Part shown: piece after piece, positions 7,739 through 19,212 of the stretch
Layout: each line of letters starts with the position of its first letter
Numbering within the stretch: position 1 is the first letter of the stretch
NCBI RefSeq assembly: GCF_002150685.1
Contig: NZ_MSSW01000045.1
Coordinates: 1-64,000, forward strand
DNA length: 64,000 bases
Source: Algoriphagus antarcticus
Lineage (GTDB): Bacteria > Bacteroidota > Bacteroidia > Cytophagales > Cyclobacteriaceae
Direction: 5' to 3'
The notes under the pieces: model-generated
What the model was told of the DNA's origin: nothing
What the model saw: only the letters and a program-made list of their open reading frames with translations
Databases searched by the model: none
Translations under genes and position numbers: made by a program

Positions 7739-10161
7739 TGGCACTTGATGAGTATAATAAAAAGCGCGATTTCAAAAAAACGAATGAACCCCGAGGAGAC
7801 TTGGCTCAGCAAGCTGGCGAACTTCGGTTTGTGGTGCAGCGTCATGATGCCAGTCACCTTCACTTTGATCTCAGACTGGAGATGGATGGAGTGCTCAAAA
7901 GTTGGGCTATTCCTAAAGGCCCATCGTTGAATCCCGGTGACAAGCGTCTGGCGGTGCAAACTGAAGATCACCCATTGAAATACCTGGACTTTCATGGGAT
8001 TATCCCGAAGGGAAATTATGGAGCAGGAGAAATGACCATTTGGGACGCAGGAACTTTTACTCCCATGTCGGACAAGAAAGATGTTGCCCTTTCCATGTTC
8101 AAAGACGGCGACCTGAAGCTTACTTTTTTTGGAACCAAGCTTCGGGGAGATTTCGCTTTGGTCAGAACGAAATTTGAAGGAAAGCAGCCACAATGGCTAT
8201 TGATCAAAAAGAAGGATGAATTTGCTACGGATCTGGATTACGATGCGAATCTTCATCTCGGAGAAACCAAAATCGAAGAGACAACCAAACCTTCCAAAGC
8301 GCTTTCCCTTACCCATCAGGTTTCACCAATGCTTGCCTCAACCAGCAAAGACCTTAAATTCAGCACTTCCAAAGACTGGCTCTACGAGATCAAATGGGAT
8401 GGCTACCGCATGATCTGCAATCACTCTTCGGATAGTACATCCCTCTATTCCCGCAACGGAGTGGATTATTCAGAGACTTTTCCTGCCTTAATAGACAGCT
8501 TAAAACAACTTCCAAAAACTGCCATACTCGATGGGGAAGTGGTGAGTCTGGATAAGAATGGAGTTTCCAAATTTCAATGGCTACAACATTATAGTGATGA
8601 GCCAAAAGGAGACCTGACTTACATGGTCTTTGACTTGCTTTATCTGGATGGGCATAGCATTATTCACCTCAAGCTGGAAGAGCGTAAGGAATTGTTGGAG
8701 TCTTTAGTCGAGGATATACCTAACATACGCTATAGTGAACATTTGACCGGCGGTGGCAAAGCTTTCTTCGAAGAAGTGAAGGAAAATGAGCTTGAAGGAA
8801 TCATCGGCAAAAAAGCTGGTTCTTTCTATTATCCGGGTGTTCGATCTGAGGAATGGGTGAAATTCAAAACGCAAGAAAGCATCGAGGCGATCATCTGTGG
8901 CTACACCAAATCAGATAATCGTCCGTTTGGCTCCTTGATCCTAGGACTGCATAGACAAAATGAATTGACCTACGCGGGCAACTGTGGGACAGGTTTTTCT
9001 ATTGCTCTGCAAAAGGAGCTGGTTGTTCAGTTTGATAAAATACAACAATCGAAATCACCCTTTCCGGAAAAAATAAATCTAAACGGAAGGCAGCCTGTCT
9101 GGCTTCATCCGGTGATGATAGCTGAAGTAACATTTGCAGAATGGACAGAAAACAACAGACTTCGCCAGCCGGTTTTCAAAGGATTACGAAATGACAAATT
9201 CCCCCAAGAACTAAAAATCGAAAGCTCTGAAACAGCTGGAAAATCCAGCGGCAGTTCAGATAATTCCTTGGAAATTGACGGGATTAATGTCCCCGTAAGC
9301 AATCTGGAAAAGCCCCTATGGCCTAAAGAAGGAATTACCAAATACGATCTGATTGACTATTACCTTTCTGTGTCAGATTATATTTTACCTTTTTTAAAAG
9401 ATCGTCCACAAAATCTCCACCGTCATCCAAACGGGATAGATAAAGATGGATTTTACCAGAAAGACACACCAGAAGGATATCCTGATTGGATAGAAACTAC
9501 CAGCATCCATTCAGAATCCTCCGAGAAGGATATTGATTACATGCTTTGCCAAAATGAAGCAACGCTCATCTACATGGCGAATCTTGGCTGTATTGAGATT
9601 AATCCCTGGAATGCAAGGATCGGTTCACTAGATAATCCGGATTATATCGTGATAGATCTGGATCCATCTGACAAAAACGATTTTAAGCAAGTCATAGAAG
9701 TAGCTCAGGCTTTTCATCAACTGCTTGAGGAATTAAAGATTGATGCATACTGCAAAACCTCGGGTGCGAGCGGACTTCATATTTATATCCCTTTGGGTGC
9801 AAAATATACTTTTGAGGAAGGACGCGATTTCTGCAAGCTTTTGTGCACCATCATCCAAGAACAGCTTCCCAAACTCACTACCATGGAAAGACCACTCAAA
9901 GCAAGGAAAGGAAGAATCTATCTGGACTACCTGCAGAATCGTCTTGGGCAAACGCTTGCATCTGTGTACTGCGTGCGTCCCAAACCCGGAGCAACTGTTT
10001 CCACACCACTTCTTTGGAAAGAAGTAAATAGCAAACTGGACAAAAATGACTTCACAATTTTTACGCTCAAGCATAGACTTAAACAGCACCCAGATCTTTT
10101 TAAAGAGGTTCTTGGCAAGGGGGTCAGCATAGAGAAAACACTCGAAAGGCTAGATGGATAG
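7738..10161 (+). CDS. ligD: Multifunctional DNA ligase D (phosphoesterase-ligase-polymerase)
   Basis: 807 residues with three domains in the order seen in Pseudomonas LigD. First the 3'-phosphoesterase domain (about 1-160; RHDASHLHFDLRLE gives the metal-binding His and Asp). Next the ATP-dependent ligase domain (about 190-490) with nucleotidyl lysine K219 in EIKWDGYR and the EWVKFK motif V near its middle. Last the archaeo-eukaryotic primase-type polymerase domain (about 520-800) with the VIDLDPSD catalytic acids and SGASGLHIY. It heals, fills and seals DNA ends held by Ku. Translation starts within the ku stop codon. All expected catalytic motifs are present, so the system looks functional. 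Confidence 0.97.
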   Translation: MALDEYNKKRDFKKTNEPRGDLAQQAGELRFVVQRHDASHLHFDLRLEMDGVLKSWAIPKGPSLNPGDKRLAVQTEDHPLKYLDFHGIIPKGNYGAGEMTIWDAGTFTPMSDKKDVALSMFKDGDLKLTFFGTKLRGDFALVRTKFEGKQPQWLLIKKKDEFATDLDYDANLHLGETKIEETTKPSKALSLTHQVSPMLASTSKDLKFSTSKDWLYEIKWDGYRMICNHSSDSTSLYSRNGVDYSETFPALIDSLKQLPKTAILDGEVVSLDKNGVSKFQWLQHYSDEPKGDLTYMVFDLLYLDGHSIIHLKLEERKELLESLVEDIPNIRYSEHLTGGGKAFFEEVKENELEGIIGKKAGSFYYPGVRSEEWVKFKTQESIEAIICGYTKSDNRPFGSLILGLHRQNELTYAGNCGTGFSIALQKELVVQFDKIQQSKSPFPEKINLNGRQPVWLHPVMIAEVTFAEWTENNRLRQPVFKGLRNDKFPQELKIESSETAGKSSGSSDNSLEIDGINVPVSNLEKPLWPKEGITKYDLIDYYLSVSDYILPFLKDRPQNLHRHPNGIDKDGFYQKDTPEGYPDWIETTSIHSESSEKDIDYMLCQNEATLIYMANLGCIEINPWNARIGSLDNPDYIVIDLDPSDKNDFKQVIEVAQAFHQLLEELKIDAYCKTSGASGLHIYIPLGAKYTFEEGRDFCKLLCTIIQEQLPKLTTMERPLKARKGRIYLDYLQNRLGQTLASVYCVRPKPGATVSTPLLWKEVNSKLDKNDFTIFTLKHRLKQHPDLFKEVLGKGVSIEKTLERLDG

Positions 10162-10353
10162 CTATCATTGCAGTACGATCCAAAACCCGAATTGGGAATA
10201 ATTTTTCACAGAAATAGTCTTCGACAGTAGTTTTTTTCACCTATAAAGCATTTTGGCTTCCATTATTGACCTATATCGTCTATTTCCCATTTTGGCTAAA
10301 TGATTGATCTTTTAATGAGATCGAATAGAGTTCAAATCAAACCCTAATCAACC

Positions 10354-11634
10354 ATGTACTTTAAAAATACACTTCCACTTTTGGCCTTAGCAGCTTTTGG
10401 CTTTGTCTCATGTCAGGAAAAAGTCTCCAAAGAAGAGAAAGAAGAAATCTCCGAAACCAGTGCCGATACGGTGCAAACTGCACTTGGCCAATTAATTTTG
10501 CCCCCGCCGTACGCAACCGAGTCTGTCACTAACGAAAGTAAAATTGTGGCCTGGCCTGACGGCAAAATGCCCACTGCTCCAGCTGGATTTACCGTTACCA
10601 AATTTGCTGATGAATTGGACAACCCGAGAAATACATATGTAGGGCCAAACGGGGATATTTTTGTAGTAGAAAGCAGCACAAAAGGTAGCGCGGATCGTAT
10701 CACCATCTTCAAGGATAAGGATAAAAACGGCGAATATGAGACCCGTGAAGTATTCAAAGAAAACTTGAACAGCCCATATGGAATGCTCATTCTGAACGAG
10801 CACTTTTACATCGCCAATACAGATGGACTTTATAGATTCGCCTACAAATCAGGACAGATAAAACTTGAAGGCGAGGGAGAAAAAATAGTTGATCTCCCAG
10901 CTGGAGGATATAATAATCACTGGACAAGAAATCTGATTGCTAATGAAGATGGGAGTAAAATCTACATTTCCGTCGGATCTGCCAGTAATGCAGGGGAACA
11001 TGGAATGGAAGAGGAGCATCGAAGAGCTGCGATTTTGGAAGTGAATCCAGATGGAACTGGAGAAATTATGTTTGCAAGTGGACTGAGAAATCCAGTGGGA
11101 ATGTCGTGGAACCCGGCAACAAAGGAACTTTGGACTGCGGTAAATGAACGAGATAAATTGGGCGATAATTTGGTGCCTGATTATATCACAAGTGTAAAGA
11201 AAGGAGGGTTTTATGGATGGCCTTATTCTTATTATGGTCAGATCGAAGATCCAAGAATGGAAGGCCAAGCTCCCGAATTGGTTGAGAAAGCAATTGTCCC
11301 AGAAGTATCGGTAGGAAGTCACACGGCTTCGCTGGGTTTGACTTTCTATGATGGAACTGGCTTTCCGGAAGAATATAATAACGGAGCATATGTAGGACAA
11401 CATGGTTCTTGGAACCGTGAAAAACTTGCTGGATATAAAGTTCTTTATGTGCCATTTGAGAATGGTAAGCCTGCTGGAGAGCCACAGGATTTCTTAACAG
11501 GATTTGTGTCAGAATCTGAGAGTTCCGAAGTATATGGGCGTCCGGTGGACGTGACAGTTTTGCCCGACGGTGCACTTTTGGTAAATGATGATAACGGGAA
11601 TACGCTTTGGAAAATAGCTTATACAGGCAATTAG
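10354..11634 (+). CDS. PQQ-dependent sugar/sorbosone dehydrogenase-like lipoprotein
   Basis: 426 residues. A lipoprotein signal ends at FVSC (Cys20), so the mature protein is anchored in the envelope. The rest reads as a six-bladed beta-propeller of the GSDH/sorbosone dehydrogenase family: NPRNTYVGPNGDIFV, SGLRNPVGMSWNP, GFYGWPYSYYG, HGSWNR and a final GRPVDVTVLPDGALLVNDD blade. Such proteins oxidise sugars or alcohols with PQQ in the periplasm, but many Bacteroidota members lack proven substrate or cofactor. Monocistronic. A related gene runs off the other window end (63700-64000). Confidence 0.85.
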   Translation: MYFKNTLPLLALAAFGFVSCQEKVSKEEKEEISETSADTVQTALGQLILPPPYATESVTNESKIVAWPDGKMPTAPAGFTVTKFADELDNPRNTYVGPNGDIFVVESSTKGSADRITIFKDKDKNGEYETREVFKENLNSPYGMLILNEHFYIANTDGLYRFAYKSGQIKLEGEGEKIVDLPAGGYNNHWTRNLIANEDGSKIYISVGSASNAGEHGMEEEHRRAAILEVNPDGTGEIMFASGLRNPVGMSWNPATKELWTAVNERDKLGDNLVPDYITSVKKGGFYGWPYSYYGQIEDPRMEGQAPELVEKAIVPEVSVGSHTASLGLTFYDGTGFPEEYNNGAYVGQHGSWNREKLAGYKVLYVPFENGKPAGEPQDFLTGFVSESESSEVYGRPVDVTVLPDGALLVNDDNGNTLWKIAYTGN

Positions 11635-14819: not shown

Positions 14820-15113
14820 ATGAAAACTAATAAACCTGAGAAAACACAAAACCTAAAAGATAAAACTACTGAAGAACTGGTACGGGAAGCCAGAGTCACC
14901 AAGGATGATCTCCAAGCCTTAGGTCCAAAAGATGCAAATCTAAGTGATGACGGCGGCGACGATGAGCAGCTTATCGAGAGAAAGAGAAAAGTTGATTTCA
15001 CGGGTGATGGGCTGGATGTGCCAGGAAGCGAGTTGGATGACCAACAGGAAAATATTGGTTCCGAGGACGAGGAAAATAACTCTTACAGCAATGCAGACGA
15101 AGAGGAAAGGTAA
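14820..15113 (+). CDS. Acidic, probably disordered 97-residue protein, first gene of the QEGLA operon
   Basis: Basic N-terminal third (KTNKPEKTQ...), then a very acidic tail with DDGGDDEQ (about 43-50), DVPGSELDDQQENIGSEDEE (66-85) and the C-terminus NADEEER. The conserved-looking DVPGSELDD core recalls small hypothetical proteins common in Bacteroidota. No signal peptide or membrane segment. The stop overlaps the start of the DUF1704 peptidase gene (TAATG), so the two are translationally coupled. An acidic flexible tail next to a C-terminal peptidase and an ATP-grasp ligase makes it a candidate substrate, but that is inference. Confidence 0.75.
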   Translation: MKTNKPEKTQNLKDKTTEELVREARVTKDDLQALGPKDANLSDDGGDDEQLIERKRKVDFTGDGLDVPGSELDDQQENIGSEDEENNSYSNADEEER

Positions 15114-16948
15114 TGATTGATAAAAAGACAAAGGAAGCACTCACCGAAGCCCTGAAGACAGGAAACGTTCTTAATCTTTCTCTTGGAGGTAAAAGCCGGA
15201 TAAGAATAGAGCGGAGATTGCCTTTTCTTTTGATCTATCGCGAAGAAAAACAAGATCACTTTAAAGTTTCGGATCTCGTGAGAATGGAGTCTTCCTATCT
15301 GATCACTGAATCCAGCACTGATTTCAATTCGGATATTGCTCTGCTTGCCAAGGAATTGTCGAAGGAGCTAGCTGAAGAATACGGTTCGGTGATGGTTCTT
15401 GAGGTTTGGATAGGAAAACCGGACAGTAAATCTTTTAAACTCAAAACTGCTAAAGATAAAGCGCCAAACACTGTGAAAGCATTTCAGGATGGACTGCAGG
15501 CATTTTGCCGAACCCATCCAGAGCTGACTGTTCAAGTAGAGGAGAACCTAATTCGGCATCCAGATCATCTGGCGGATTTTCTGACTTTGAAGCAGTGTCA
15601 AGAAGCAGGCATTTACTTGATGGGATTGGAGATTCCACCTTTCTTCCAAAGTCATGCAAATAAGGAGTTTTACTACCTAGTCTTTAAGGAATTCAAGCTA
15701 GCTTTTTCCAATATTCTCAGAAAGGCAGTGTATGAATTTATACGAGTTCAGACTTCCTTCGATATTCAAAATTATCAGCGTCTGGGTAGTACTGTGGTAG
15801 ATGAAAAAGTGTGGGAAGTAGATAAGCAACTTTCTGAAATTGAGGCTAAGTATCAGTTTCTGCTGCTTATTTCCCCAACAAATACTATGCAGGCAAAGGA
15901 AGAATTCATCGCAAACCAGCATCGCAAGAACCCAAAGTTCCTTTACCGCAATTTACCCATAGATCCAGATCGATTGAAGGAAGAGTTGTTCCGAATTGAT
16001 ATCAGAGGCATACAAGATCCTACCCTTTCATTTCTTTACACGGAAAAGCGCGAGGAAATCGAAAAACAGATTACCATGCTCAAGGAGCGAGGAACAAAGA
16101 ACTTCATGTATAGTAGCATTCGTTTATACAGTACTCCGGGAGTAGAGCTACACGAAACGGCTAAACTTTTGCTAAAAACCCTTCCTCCTGATGATTTCGA
16201 GAATATAGAATGGATAGATCCTTACGATATGGCTAAATATTGTATGGCTGAAATTGAAGAATACAGAAAAATTTATCCGGCATTAAACTCTAAAGTAGAG
16301 GTGAAAAATGACATTGTCGGGATGCTGGTGTCGAGAGGTCAGCTCTACATAGGTTCTAGTTTTAAAGTTCCAAAACAACGGATCAAAGCCTTGGTTCATC
16401 ACGAAGTTGGTACACATGTGCTCACATTTTACAATGGGAAAATGCAGTCTTTCGGGCAAATGAGCAGTGGTTTTGCGGATTATGACGAGTTACAGGAAGG
16501 TCTTGCAGTCTTGGCAGAATACCTAGTCGGAGGACTTACCAATAACAGACTGAGAACTCTTGCTGCAAGAGTGATCGCAGGAAGAGCGGTGACAGAAGGA
16601 ATGACTTTCGAAGAGACATACCATACGCTGACAGCAGAATATAATTCCTCGCCTGAGCAGGCTTTTCAGATTACAGCTAGAGCATATCAAGGCGGTGGCT
16701 GCACCAAAGATATAATCTACCTCAGAGGCCTGATTAAACTGATAGATTACCTGCAAAATGGTGGCGATTTGGAACCGCTGTATGTAGGTAAAATAGGATT
16801 TAAACATATTGCCCTGATCCAAGAATTGCGCATTCGCGACATCATAAAACCGTCTCCACTTAGTCCAAGCTATCTCAAAACAGATTTTGCTCAGGAGCGA
16901 CTGCAAAAATTAAAGGAAGGACTGACCTTGCCCGAACTAGTCAATTAA
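15113..16948 (+). CDS. QEGLA-motif / DUF1704 metallopeptidase-like protein (MATCAP-like)
   Basis: 611 residues. The zinc motif HExxxH is HEVGTH at 430-435, followed by QEGLA (461-465), whose Glu is the expected third ligand. This is the DUF1704/TIGR02421 family (databases use the name flavohemoglobin expression-modulating QEGLA motif protein). The vertebrate relatives MATCAP/TMCP remove the C-terminal tyrosine of tubulin, so carboxypeptidase action on a protein tail is a reasonable guess for the bacterial protein. N-terminal about 200 residues form a separate domain. Start overlaps the stop of the acidic protein; the ATP-grasp gene follows 17 bases after its stop. Metal site intact. Confidence 0.88.
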   Translation: MIDKKTKEALTEALKTGNVLNLSLGGKSRIRIERRLPFLLIYREEKQDHFKVSDLVRMESSYLITESSTDFNSDIALLAKELSKELAEEYGSVMVLEVWIGKPDSKSFKLKTAKDKAPNTVKAFQDGLQAFCRTHPELTVQVEENLIRHPDHLADFLTLKQCQEAGIYLMGLEIPPFFQSHANKEFYYLVFKEFKLAFSNILRKAVYEFIRVQTSFDIQNYQRLGSTVVDEKVWEVDKQLSEIEAKYQFLLLISPTNTMQAKEEFIANQHRKNPKFLYRNLPIDPDRLKEELFRIDIRGIQDPTLSFLYTEKREEIEKQITMLKERGTKNFMYSSIRLYSTPGVELHETAKLLLKTLPPDDFENIEWIDPYDMAKYCMAEIEEYRKIYPALNSKVEVKNDIVGMLVSRGQLYIGSSFKVPKQRIKALVHHEVGTHVLTFYNGKMQSFGQMSSGFADYDELQEGLAVLAEYLVGGLTNNRLRTLAARVIAGRAVTEGMTFEETYHTLTAEYNSSPEQAFQITARAYQGGGCTKDIIYLRGLIKLIDYLQNGGDLEPLYVGKIGFKHIALIQELRIRDIIKPSPLSPSYLKTDFAQERLQKLKEGLTLPELVN

Positions 16949-16965
16949 CCACTAACCACCACAAA

Positions 16966-18009
16966 ATGAAAATTGGATTTGTAGTAAATCAAATAGAAAC
17001 TGAGACTGGAGGATACAGTACTACGCAACTTTCTTCAGCTGCGGTTCACCGAGGGCATGAGGTTTACATCATCAGTGTAGGGCAGCTTTGCTATCTCGAA
17101 GATGGTAGAATGGGTGCTATAGCTGTAAAAGCTCCTAATACAAAGTTCCGTAGTTTGAATAAGTACATGGATGCTATTCACAGTCCACAGGCTGAGCGAA
17201 TACACATAGCTTCAGATGATATAGATGTGCTTTTTCTGAGAAATAATCCCTGCGAGGAATTTGGGGAAAGAGCCTGGGCACAGACTGCCGGGATGGTTTT
17301 CGGTCAGATAGCAAGTGCAAATGGAGTACTTGTGGTGAATGATCCTTATGCGTTAATGTCATCTTTTAACAAGATGTACTTTCAGCATTTCCCTGAAACC
17401 GTAAGGCCAAGAACGATCATCAGCCGAGATGCAGATGAGATAAAGGAATTTTACAGAAAAGAAAAGAAGAAGATTATCTTGAAACCACTTCAAGGCTCGG
17501 GTGGAAAGGATGTGTTCTTGGTGGACAACGATAAAAACCTCAACCAGATCGTGGAGACGATCAACCGCTATGGTTTTGTGATTGCACAGCAATACCTTCC
17601 TGCAGCCAAAAACGGCGATATAAGAGTAATCATGATGAATGGGAAAATCCTGGAAATAAATGGAAAAGTAGCGGCTGTCAACAGGGTAAATAACAATGAT
17701 ATTCGAAGTAATCTACACTCAGGAGGTGAAGCAATCCATGCCGAAATTACTGATGATGTACGTAGACTATGTGAGATCGTCGGGCCAAAATTGGTGCAGG
17801 ACGGAATGTTCCTCGCTGGAATAGATATCGTCGGAGACAAAATTATGGAGCTGAATCTAGATAGTCCGGGGACTATTAATGCAATGCATAGACTCGAAGG
17901 TGTAGACTTCTCATCTGCTATAATCGATTCTCTTGAGCGAAAAGTGAAATACCAAAAGCATTACGACGGTAGTCTGCCCAATGCTTTTTTGGCAACTTTG
18001 AATCCTTAA
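16966..18009 (+). CDS. ATP-grasp ligase, glutathione synthase/RimK-like
   Basis: 347 residues. An N-terminal Rossmann-like pre-ATP-grasp domain (MKIGFVVNQIETETGGYSTT) is followed by the ATP-grasp fold: IILKPLQGSGGKDVF (glycine-rich loop region), GDIRVIMMNGKILEINGKVA and the metal-binding MELNLDSPGTINAM. GshB and RimK use this fold to join an amino acid or peptide by an acyl-phosphate. No gshA is nearby, so glutathione synthesis is unlikely to be its sole role. Directly downstream of the DUF1704 peptidase in one operon, it could ligate what the peptidase removes. Transcription probably ends at the hairpin at 18067. Confidence 0.85.
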   Translation: MKIGFVVNQIETETGGYSTTQLSSAAVHRGHEVYIISVGQLCYLEDGRMGAIAVKAPNTKFRSLNKYMDAIHSPQAERIHIASDDIDVLFLRNNPCEEFGERAWAQTAGMVFGQIASANGVLVVNDPYALMSSFNKMYFQHFPETVRPRTIISRDADEIKEFYRKEKKKIILKPLQGSGGKDVFLVDNDKNLNQIVETINRYGFVIAQQYLPAAKNGDIRVIMMNGKILEINGKVAAVNRVNNNDIRSNLHSGGEAIHAEITDDVRRLCEIVGPKLVQDGMFLAGIDIVGDKIMELNLDSPGTINAMHRLEGVDFSSAIIDSLERKVKYQKHYDGSLPNAFLATLNP

Positions 18010-18066
18010 TAGTAGCCGTTCGCGTGACACGAACGGCGGCATTGGAAGCTTCAGATTTTATAAATG

Positions 18067-18100
18067 AAAAAGGAAAAGCTAGCGATGCTTTTCCTTTTTT
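18067..18100 (+). terminator. Rho-independent terminator after the ATP-grasp gene
   Basis: Stem AAGGAAAAGC / GCTTTTCCTT with a seven-base loop, followed by TTTTT. It closes the acidic protein-QEGLA-ATP-grasp operon. The GC-rich palindrome at 18015-18037 just upstream has no T-tract. Confidence 0.75.
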
Positions 18101-18267: not shown

Positions 18268-19212
18268 TTATGCTGGTTTCACTATAAAAAAACCATCCGA
18301 CCCCTGGGTTTGATACAAAGGCAGAAACACCCTTCCCTTAGACTCTGACACAATCGACTGTCCATCCAATGAAGCTAAATGTTGTCCTTTATTGATTTTG
18401 GTGAAATTAGCATAGCCCGGATCCATTTTGAAGTTCTGATCTTCTCCAATCTCTTGTCTGTAGGTTACCTCAAAATTGTCATTGGTAGGAGAGGCTTTTT
18501 CCAAAAGCTCATAATAGTGATCATAAGCTATAGCTGATTTTTCAAGCATTCCTGTTTTCACCAAAATCACCCAAATCGCGGCCTCGTGATAGTCAACTGA
18601 TTTTGGGTCGTCGTGCTGTCCAGCTTCCATTGTAAAGCCGGAGTGACCTTTCAAAGTCTGGTAGTGGTCGAAATGCCCGGGAATGTATTTTTCTATTCCT
18701 TTCACTACTGGTAAGGGCATCTGCTTCGCAAAAGCAAAGCTGTTTTCACGGCGATTCACGCTAATGTATGGAGCAGTATTTGATGAGGTGGTATGCAAAT
18801 CCATGAAATGGAAAACTGTATTGAACTTTTCGTTCTCTAATTTTTCGACTATAGTTAGCAACTCATTAAACTCTGTTGCTTCGTGATAATCGAGCTGATT
18901 GTGCGCTTGTAGCTGCTTTTCATTTTCTAGGGTACATACTCGATTTAGATCTTTGTCTATCAGACGAGCTCCTTTTTTTAAGGCTACAATATTTCCCGCC
19001 ACACCAACTATTTTACCTTTCAGTGTCAGCTTTTCCTCCTGTAGTTTTTTAAACACACGTTGCAAAGCAAGTATACCGCTTGGCTCATTTCCATGTACTC
19101 CGCCACTCACCAGCAAATAAGATCCTGGAGTCTGATGGCATGGTTCGGCAGGATACTCACCGATTACTCTGGTGAGGTTTTCTTTATCTAAAGTTTCTGT
19201 GTTTGTTTTCAT
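18268..19212 (-). CDS. Succinylglutamate desuccinylase/aspartoacylase (AstE/AspA) family protein
   Basis: 314 residues of the M14-like zinc deacylase family. GGVHGNEPSG (37-46) supplies ligands H40 and E43, DLNR is at 88-91, H140 sits in FMDLHTTSS, and E196 in FTMEAGQHD is the catalytic acid. It hydrolyses an N-acyl or amide bond in an amino-acid derivative; the exact substrate cannot be read from sequence. It is convergent with the QEGLA/ATP-grasp operon. I recall the three families co-occurring in Bacteroidota, suggesting a shared pathway, but the physical link here is only neighbourhood. Confidence 0.85.
   Translation of the reverse strand: MKTNTETLDKENLTRVIGEYPAEPCHQTPGSYLLVSGGVHGNEPSGILALQRVFKKLQEEKLTLKGKIVGVAGNIVALKKGARLIDKDLNRVCTLENEKQLQAHNQLDYHEATEFNELLTIVEKLENEKFNTVFHFMDLHTTSSNTAPYISVNRRENSFAFAKQMPLPVVKGIEKYIPGHFDHYQTLKGHSGFTMEAGQHDDPKSVDYHEAAIWVILVKTGMLEKSAIAYDHYYELLEKASPTNDNFEVTYRQEIGEDQNFKMDPGYANFTKINKGQHLASLDGQSIVSESKGRVFLPLYQTQGSDGFFIVKPA

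Follow-up and report, generated by a model that had tools for sequence, protein, structure and literature searches.

A 64,000-nucleotide stretch of the Algoriphagus antarcticus genome (contig NZ_MSSW01000045.1, positions 1 to 64,000; here termed the window) carries a gene cassette that comprises a predicted MATCAP/DUF1704 carboxypeptidase, a GshB-like ATP-grasp ligase and an AstE/aspartoacylase-like (AspA-like) amidohydrolase, and several described systems share part of this equipment. In the rhizobial trio of N-formylglutamate amidohydrolase (FGase), QEGLA and glutathione synthetase genes (e.g. S. meliloti pSymB U8C34_11485-11475), the MATCAP and ligase families are the same and appear in the same order; the amidohydrolase role is filled there by FGase. 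Algoriphagus has an AspA-like enzyme in its place, encoded on the other strand, and an acidic gene in addition. The plasmid records examined label bacterial MATCAP relatives "flavohemoglobin expression-modulating QEGLA motif protein". No described function for the trio was found in literature searches, which covered few subscription papers, and the literature so searched contained no paper joining ATP-grasp enzymes with DUF1704 or with FGase; a 2009 study by Iyer et al. is said, going by its title, to concern ATP-grasp amidoligases and peptide modification, and may already describe the operon.

The tubulin-modifying enzymes are related to the cassette through the catalytic domain of MATCAP1/TMCP1, and tubulin tyrosine ligase (TTL) also belongs to the ATP-grasp superfamily. 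The bacterial protein, however, has a GshB-like ligase and an amidohydrolase for conserved partners, and itself carries an FGase-like N-terminal domain; since the ligase is GshB-like and no TTL family appears among its Pfam matches at E 0.001, the parallel with TTL drawn in a first-pass annotation of this DNA is not supported. The genes of the vertebrate N-acetylaspartylglutamate (NAAG) cycle form no operon, and its glutamate carboxypeptidase II (GCPII) is of a different peptidase family. Its complement of ATP-grasp ligase (RIMKLA/RIMKLB), carboxypeptidase (GCPII) and aspartoacylase (ASPA) is nonetheless alike (PMC3872778). In a similar manner, RimK-RimB joins an ATP-grasp ligase with a peptidase that undoes its work (PMC12239564). 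RimB, though, is an aspartic (retropepsin-like) protease, and RimK, whose substrate is a known ribosomal protein, falls into another subfamily of ATP-grasp enzymes.

The comparative analysis reported here reveals that the three enzymes of the cassette travel together with their metal and catalytic motifs intact, and that the conserved unit reaches beyond the three genes of the first-pass annotation to the minus-strand gene at 18268-19212, which that annotation had overlooked and which is new to the account of this operon. With a probability of roughly 0.55, we read the cassette as a set of three enzymes, a GshB-like ligase, a MATCAP metallocarboxypeptidase and an N-acyl (or isopeptide) amidohydrolase, by which a small acidic peptide, probably a glutamyl one, is made and recycled. 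The locus is arranged as follows:

14820-15113, plus strand: open reading frame (ORF) for a 97-residue acidic protein, overlapping the MATCAP start; a genus-level companion outside the conserved unit
15113-16948, plus strand: MATCAP/DUF1704 protein of 611 residues (PF08014), with a predicted FGase-like N-terminal domain and a predicted MATCAP carboxypeptidase domain
16966-18009, plus strand: GshB-like ATP-grasp carboxylate-amine ligase of 347 residues (NF009110), directly downstream of the MATCAP gene
18066-18100, plus strand: terminator-like stem-loop past the ligase gene, not above shuffled expectation
18268-19212, minus strand: AstE/aspartoacylase-like zinc amidohydrolase of 314 residues (PF24827), convergent; third member of the conserved unit

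Conservation of the three-enzyme unit

The acidic protein and MATCAP genes overlap by one base and a gap of 17 bases separates the MATCAP and ligase genes; these junctions, the HEVGTH and QEGLA motifs, the GshB/RimK-like nature of the ligase, the acidic tail and its C-terminal Arg are all as the first-pass annotation gave them. Its single terminator fared less well, because the stem with a T run is indeed present but only two such sites were found against a mean of 2.5 in shuffled sequences, so that the site is weak. PF08014 matches once in the 5.88 Mb host genome, and the closest named relatives at the locus are Algoriphagus species, the A. chordae MATCAP protein being 90% identical. The order of acidic protein, MATCAP and ligase genes is identical in all four MATCAP carriers among 36 genus genomes (own included) and recurs in six named Algoriphagus loci, at least two of which repeat genus genomes already counted; hence, the three-gene arrangement is not a chance reading. 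As regards a phage origin, 50,697 phage records gave a single match, with an E-value of 7e-8 over 45% of the query.

Outside the genus, we analyzed 80 named MATCAP loci, the best by similarity among 481 confirmed ones; all but one are Bacteroidota by title. The locus sets taken from genomes and from the named loci overlap by at least three loci. The genomes are related, and counts are therefore not independent. A GshB-like ligase gene lies directly downstream of MATCAP in all 80 named loci (the ligases of L146 and L178, split into two ORFs, are counted as present), with a median spacing of 2 bases and frequent 4-base overlaps. The ligase is also found in the MATCAP gene run, by our reading, in 17 of 18 loci from a phylum sample, with three genes between in L090 and L091, and in six of eight locus contexts from the genus and order. 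Among 58 related genomes (own included), a high-scoring PRK12458-type ligase (at least 393 bits) is present in six of the seven with MATCAP and in none of the 51 others. A plasmid search returned 127 records with a MATCAP match, from which 11 contexts (ten, plus one from a second search) were opened, picked among annotated records and not at random; all eight opened Rhizobiales and Roseateles contexts, the Roseateles record being marked as of unverified organism, show FGase, QEGLA and "glutathione synthase/synthetase" in that order. The peptidase-ligase coupling described in the first-pass annotation is thus borne out well beyond Algoriphagus.

The amidohydrolase is likewise a regular partner. 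An AspA-like gene adjoins the cassette in 64 of the 80 named loci, 52 times downstream of the ligase with the same orientation and 12 times convergent, as in the window (the AspA-like gene of L150, cut by a contig end, is counted among the 64). FGase takes its place in eight loci, neither enzyme appears in another eight, and no fetched stretch holds both. One of the eight loci with neither, L132, is cut by a contig end inside the ligase; it was left unlabeled for amidohydrolase in the tree and did not enter the check on the remaining seven. Every one of the seven genomes concerned has an AspA-like or FGase gene at another place. Five of these seven genomes have FGase beside a short MATCAP in another stretch, together with a second-type ligase inside that fetched stretch in four cases, and in three of the five a ligase-AspA pair also occurs behind a (cut) MATCAP; the genomes of L114 and L120 have just stand-alone AspA-like genes, with best scores of 400 and 303 bits, respectively. 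Across the 58 related genomes, a close AspA (at least 428 bits) occurs in four and FGase in three, the latter matching the N-terminal part of fused MATCAP proteins, and these are exactly the seven MATCAP genomes. On the MATCAP-domain tree, the difference between AspA and FGase partners (fused and separate together) needs one change. This tree has 101 rows and was built by a quick method, with Shimodaira-Hasegawa-like approximate likelihood ratio test (SH-aLRT) values of 83 on one side and 89 on the other and several long branches flagged; it leaves out L028, L029, L030, L096 and L097, of which L028, L030 and L096 repeat L106, L107 and L111, and L097 is GC-rich, a single ORF call there spanning both MATCAP and ligase. 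AspA-like and FGase enzymes, then, replace one another in the cassette.

Some loci depart from the common layout. Tandem pairs of ligase genes stand behind MATCAP in L119, L120, L170 and L173, the last being a Brocadiaceae locus that holds FGase, MATCAP and two ligases. The genomes of L126, L146 and L162 contain three MATCAP stretches each, namely MATCAP-ligase, (cut) MATCAP-ligase-AspA and second-type ligase-FGase-MATCAP. Among Flavobacteriaceae-type genomes, the second-type cassette of L087 (10316-13654) includes a rhodanese gene and lies beside a sodium:dicarboxylate symporter gene, both assigned by family search, and L090 and L091 appear by eye to have the same two genes.

Domains and active sites of the enzymes

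In a Pfam profile search, the MATCAP protein scores 274.9 bits against PF08014 (cut-off 27), and it carries HEVGTH with QEGLA downstream, that is, HExxxH followed by the EGLA glutamate; the patterns HE..TH and QEG[LIM]A are kept in all 80 named homologues. Its score against NCBIfam TIGR02421 (QEGLA), 304.8 bits, lies below the cut-off of 338.65, which makes it a relative and not a formal member of that family. The structure model, with a predicted local distance difference test (pLDDT) value of 91.9, matches human MATCAP (7z5g) at Z 24.6 and a root mean square deviation (rmsd) of 3.0, with 290 residues aligned over 250-609; the match spans residues 250-611 of the model, and the MATCAP carboxypeptidase domain is predicted at about these positions. 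By family, motifs and modeled fold, the protein is predicted to be a carboxypeptidase. Its N-terminal third is modeled as a degenerate FGase-like domain, residues 25-214 matching FGase 2q7s at Z 12.7 and rmsd 3.2 over 176 aligned residues; this assignment was carried by the fold match, the profile comparison with FGase being weak (13.7%). All eight separate FGases retain every one of the FGase motifs H.G[HQC], [DE].NR and D.H[ST]Y; the complete set of three is found in four of five long fused FGase-MATCAP proteins (L026 is the exception) and in none of 80 N-terminal domains of the 611-residue type. Given this loss of motifs, the 611-residue form appears to carry a spent FGase-like domain beside an intact separate amidohydrolase. 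The pattern GGGxTKDxxY, considered as a further mark of MATCAP, was dropped, as it is kept in just 26 of the 80 homologues.

The ligase contains the Pfam domains GSH-S_ATP, GSH-S_N and RimK, the RimK domain with 70.4 bits (cut-off 21). It scores 410.5 bits against NF009110 (the PRK12458 glutathione synthetase subfamily; cut-off 408), and two genus orthologues fall below that cut-off, at 398.5 and 393.3. Its scores against the glutathione synthase equivalogs TIGR01380 (206, cut-off 299.05) and NF003573 (219.8, cut-off 272) and against the RimK family TIGR00768 (95, cut-off 143.4) are all below the respective cut-offs. The best relative in the PDB is E. coli glutathione synthetase 1gsa (1.2e-33, compared with 2.2e-10 for RimK), and residues 22-329 of the ligase align to E. 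coli GshB, while the alignments to RimK and related ligases start only at 148-169 and run to 325-327. In the 1gsa alignment, GshB residues D273, E281 and N283, which we take to be the Mg ligands, correspond to D287, E295 and N297 of the ligase, and R86, N114, R210 and R233 to R92, N125, R220 and R247; in 33 aligned ligases D287, R92, N125, R220 and R247 are invariant and E295 and N297 nearly so.

The amidohydrolase scores 83.3 bits against the AstE/AspA catalytic family PF24827 (cut-off 25) and well below the equivalogs for aspartoacylase (54.5, cut-off 180) and AstE proper (52.9, cut-off 305.65). Residues H40, E43, H140, N90, R91 and E196 are invariant in 32 aligned sequences, and H40, E43, H140 and E196 are presumably the zinc and catalytic residues of the AstE/AspA family; the 80 loci encode 63 homologues of full length, and each of these keeps the patterns HGNE, DLNR, D.H.T and E.G.H. 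Its model (pLDDT 92.5) matches AstE 2g9d (Z 23.1), DoeB 6twm (Z 22.8), CphZ 8eip, a cyanophycin (beta-Asp-Arg) dipeptide hydrolase, Csd4 4wcn and aspartoacylase 4tnu (Z 19.6 each). The modeled fold is shared by amidases that act on acidic amino acids with an N-acyl group or on beta-Asp dipeptides.

The acidic protein of Algoriphagus

The 97-residue protein encoded upstream of MATCAP contains 29 Asp or Glu and 14 Lys or Arg residues, with 15 of the acidic ones among the final 40 positions, and matches no Pfam or NCBIfam family at E 0.001. The family core, approximately LDVPGxELDDxxExxGSEDEENNxYS, is internal and far better conserved than the ends, and the last residue of Algoriphagus-type members varies (Arg, Lys, Gln, Asp or Ser). 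Two paralogues lie in the own genome, on contigs 86 and 60 (L034 and L035), and close orthologues (69-77% identity) are found in the three other cassette-bearing genus genomes and in two more, G014 and G017, which show no MATCAP match and no cassette at the acidic gene. The M23 gene that stands before the acidic gene in the window does so in G014 as well; in G017 the acidic gene adjoins the GMC oxidoreductase gene, which in the window is located past the cassette.

The first-pass annotation had proposed this protein as the substrate of the two enzymes encoded downstream, a proposal that we consider very improbable and, by a small margin, the least credible of the readings weighed here. Several features speak for it: the genes overlap or nearly so in Algoriphagus, where the one-base overlap with MATCAP argues for co-translation, and an acidic tail is rare otherwise, being found in 2 of 424 further small genes at these loci. 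Furthermore, in L027, which belongs to another lineage, an unrelated 96-residue acidic protein ending in DLDY is encoded (10100-10390) directly upstream of the ligase-MATCAP pair. The protein is nevertheless encoded directly upstream of MATCAP in only six of the 80 named loci, all of them Algoriphagus, and divergently in one (Pleomorphovibrio); a seventh named Algoriphagus locus, L110, lacks it, and no other small gene with an acidic tail lies directly upstream of MATCAP in these 80 loci. Its variable C-terminus and its persistence without MATCAP in G014 and G017 also run counter to the proposal. The co-occurrence with the enzymes that it would entail was not borne out either: among 395 Bacteroidota genomes, the acidic family is present in 35 and MATCAP in 19, and both occur in five (own included), leaving 30 of the 35 without the enzymes. 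The other four genomes with both exceed the expectation of about 1.6, a point in favor of the proposal, though the genes lie there on different contigs.

It follows that the acidic protein cannot be a general substrate of the cassette and is dispensable to the enzyme unit; it may have been recruited locally in Algoriphagus and is probably a local bystander. A small acidic upstream gene as a general rule was rejected on the same counts, together with one case (L027) in 20 other loci. Also set aside was an identity as an amino-group carrier of the LysW type, whose ligase acts on a conserved C-terminal Glu, for there is no such residue in the acidic protein.

A proposed peptide cycle and its rivals

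The family chemistries at hand, namely carboxylate ligation, C-terminal trimming of acidic chains and hydrolysis of N-acyl or isopeptide bonds, suggest a small acidic peptide that is dismantled from both ends, and it is from them that we infer the identity of the substrate. In such a cycle, the ligase would join an amino acid to the carboxylate of a soluble acyl-amino acid or peptide that is acidic and either N-capped or gamma/beta-linked, MATCAP would take the C-terminal residue off again, and the amidohydrolase would strip the N-cap, or cut the isopeptide bond, so that the parts could be recycled, by a logic like that of the vertebrate NAAG cycle or of RimK/RimB. The fusion of FGase with MATCAP in some lineages fits two hydrolases sharing one substrate, and MATCAP relatives remove polyglutamate besides Tyr (PMC10499314). 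The add-and-remove system of the first-pass annotation therefore survives as a chemically plausible pair of enzymes, though not with the acidic protein as its substrate. There is also a mere hint of a tie to salinity: Photobacterium damselae genes RS17020 ("GshB") and RS17025 ("QEGLA") are up 38.4-fold and 27.5-fold, respectively, at 1% versus 3% NaCl (PMC10308900), and their names and neighbouring tags suggest that they are the MATCAP-ligase pair.

Other observations weigh against this peptide cycle. The known MATCAP substrate is a protein tail, and RimK-RimB makes a protein tail possible in bacteria as well. The ligase is missing beside MATCAP in L025, L026 and L081, neither partner is annotated within 6-7 kb of two Pseudoalteromonas and one Vibrio QEGLA genes, and the Photobacterium genes are linked to the cassette by name and tag. 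A stand-alone AspA-like gene says little, since AspA-like matches are common without MATCAP: some match at E 0.001 is found in 33 of the 58 related genomes, and distant AspA-like genes (225-308 bits, a range that includes the 303 bits of the L120 genome) in four of the 51 relatives without MATCAP. The exchange of AspA for FGase, as a single swap on a quick tree of moderate support, amounts to one natural experiment, and the profile comparison of the two families is weak (16% probability), so that their similar chemistry rests on family knowledge.

A rival possibility, which we consider doubtful, is that some other protein (a ribosomal one, for example) has its C-terminal tail modified by the ligase and MATCAP, in the way of RimK and RimB on RpsF, with the amidohydrolase processing released peptides. 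The trimming of tubulin tails by MATCAP (PMC10499314) and the removal by RimB of glutamates that RimK adds to RpsF (PMC12239564) are in line with it, and so is the finding that in certain flavobacterial genomes a distant ATP-grasp gene, RimK-like by eye, has a distant AspA-like gene for a neighbour. However, the ligase aligns to GshB over nearly its full length and to RimK over the ATP-grasp part alone, below the RimK family cut-off; the cassette has no conserved small acidic gene for a neighbour, other substrate genes not having been searched for; and proteins in which FGase and MATCAP are fused point to a small substrate that is processed from either end. The synthesis of glutathione, or of a similar thiol that the hydrolases would recycle, is brought to mind by the NCBI family name of the ligase, by its best solved relative with aligned metal-site residues and by the rhodanese gene of some cassettes. 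GCS2, a family that includes other ligases, is represented in the own genome by one GCS2-type ligase, which could supply gamma-Glu-Cys. Yet among 25 carrier genomes E. coli-type GshA (PF04262) is found in none and GCS2 (PF04107) in nine, own genome included (other GshA families were not searched), and the ligase scores below both glutathione synthase equivalogs; we thus deem this reading unlikely, and glutathione, canonical synthesis included, an unlikely product in most carriers, with the own genome a possible exception. A role in murein peptide salvage, with AspA or FGase cutting the gamma-D-Glu bond, MATCAP trimming and the ligase rebuilding, seems more improbable still. In its favor are the resemblance of the AspA model to the D,L-carboxypeptidase Csd4 over 199 residues and a weak MpaA profile match (19.5 bits, below the cut-off of 157); against it, AstE structures cover more of the model at higher Z.

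Should the product be an acyl-glutamyl or acyl-aspartyl peptide, marine Bacteroidota and rhizobia would be credited with a new metabolite, and the cassette would suggest an origin for the tubulin detyrosinase fold. It is conceivable, albeit rather improbable in our estimate, that MATCAP/DUF1704 enzymes originated in bacteria, where they took care of recycling in a cycle of N-acyl acidic dipeptides that parallels the NAAG cycle and is perhaps linked to osmotic state, and that the eukaryotic tubulin detyrosinase represents the reuse of this carboxypeptidase on a protein tail. In any event, the cassette offers the bacterial MATCAP relatives a testable pathway, in which a ligase and two hydrolases are at hand and a single metabolite is missing, and the corrected substrate guess means that effort need not be spent first on the acidic protein. 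The flavobacterial gene pair mentioned above, a distant ATP-grasp gene adjoining a distant AspA-like gene, was seen in L207 (3720-5563), L201, L202, L204 and L205, and the two genes overlap in L202 and L207; the ATP-grasp gene is RimK-like by eye, no family search having been made.

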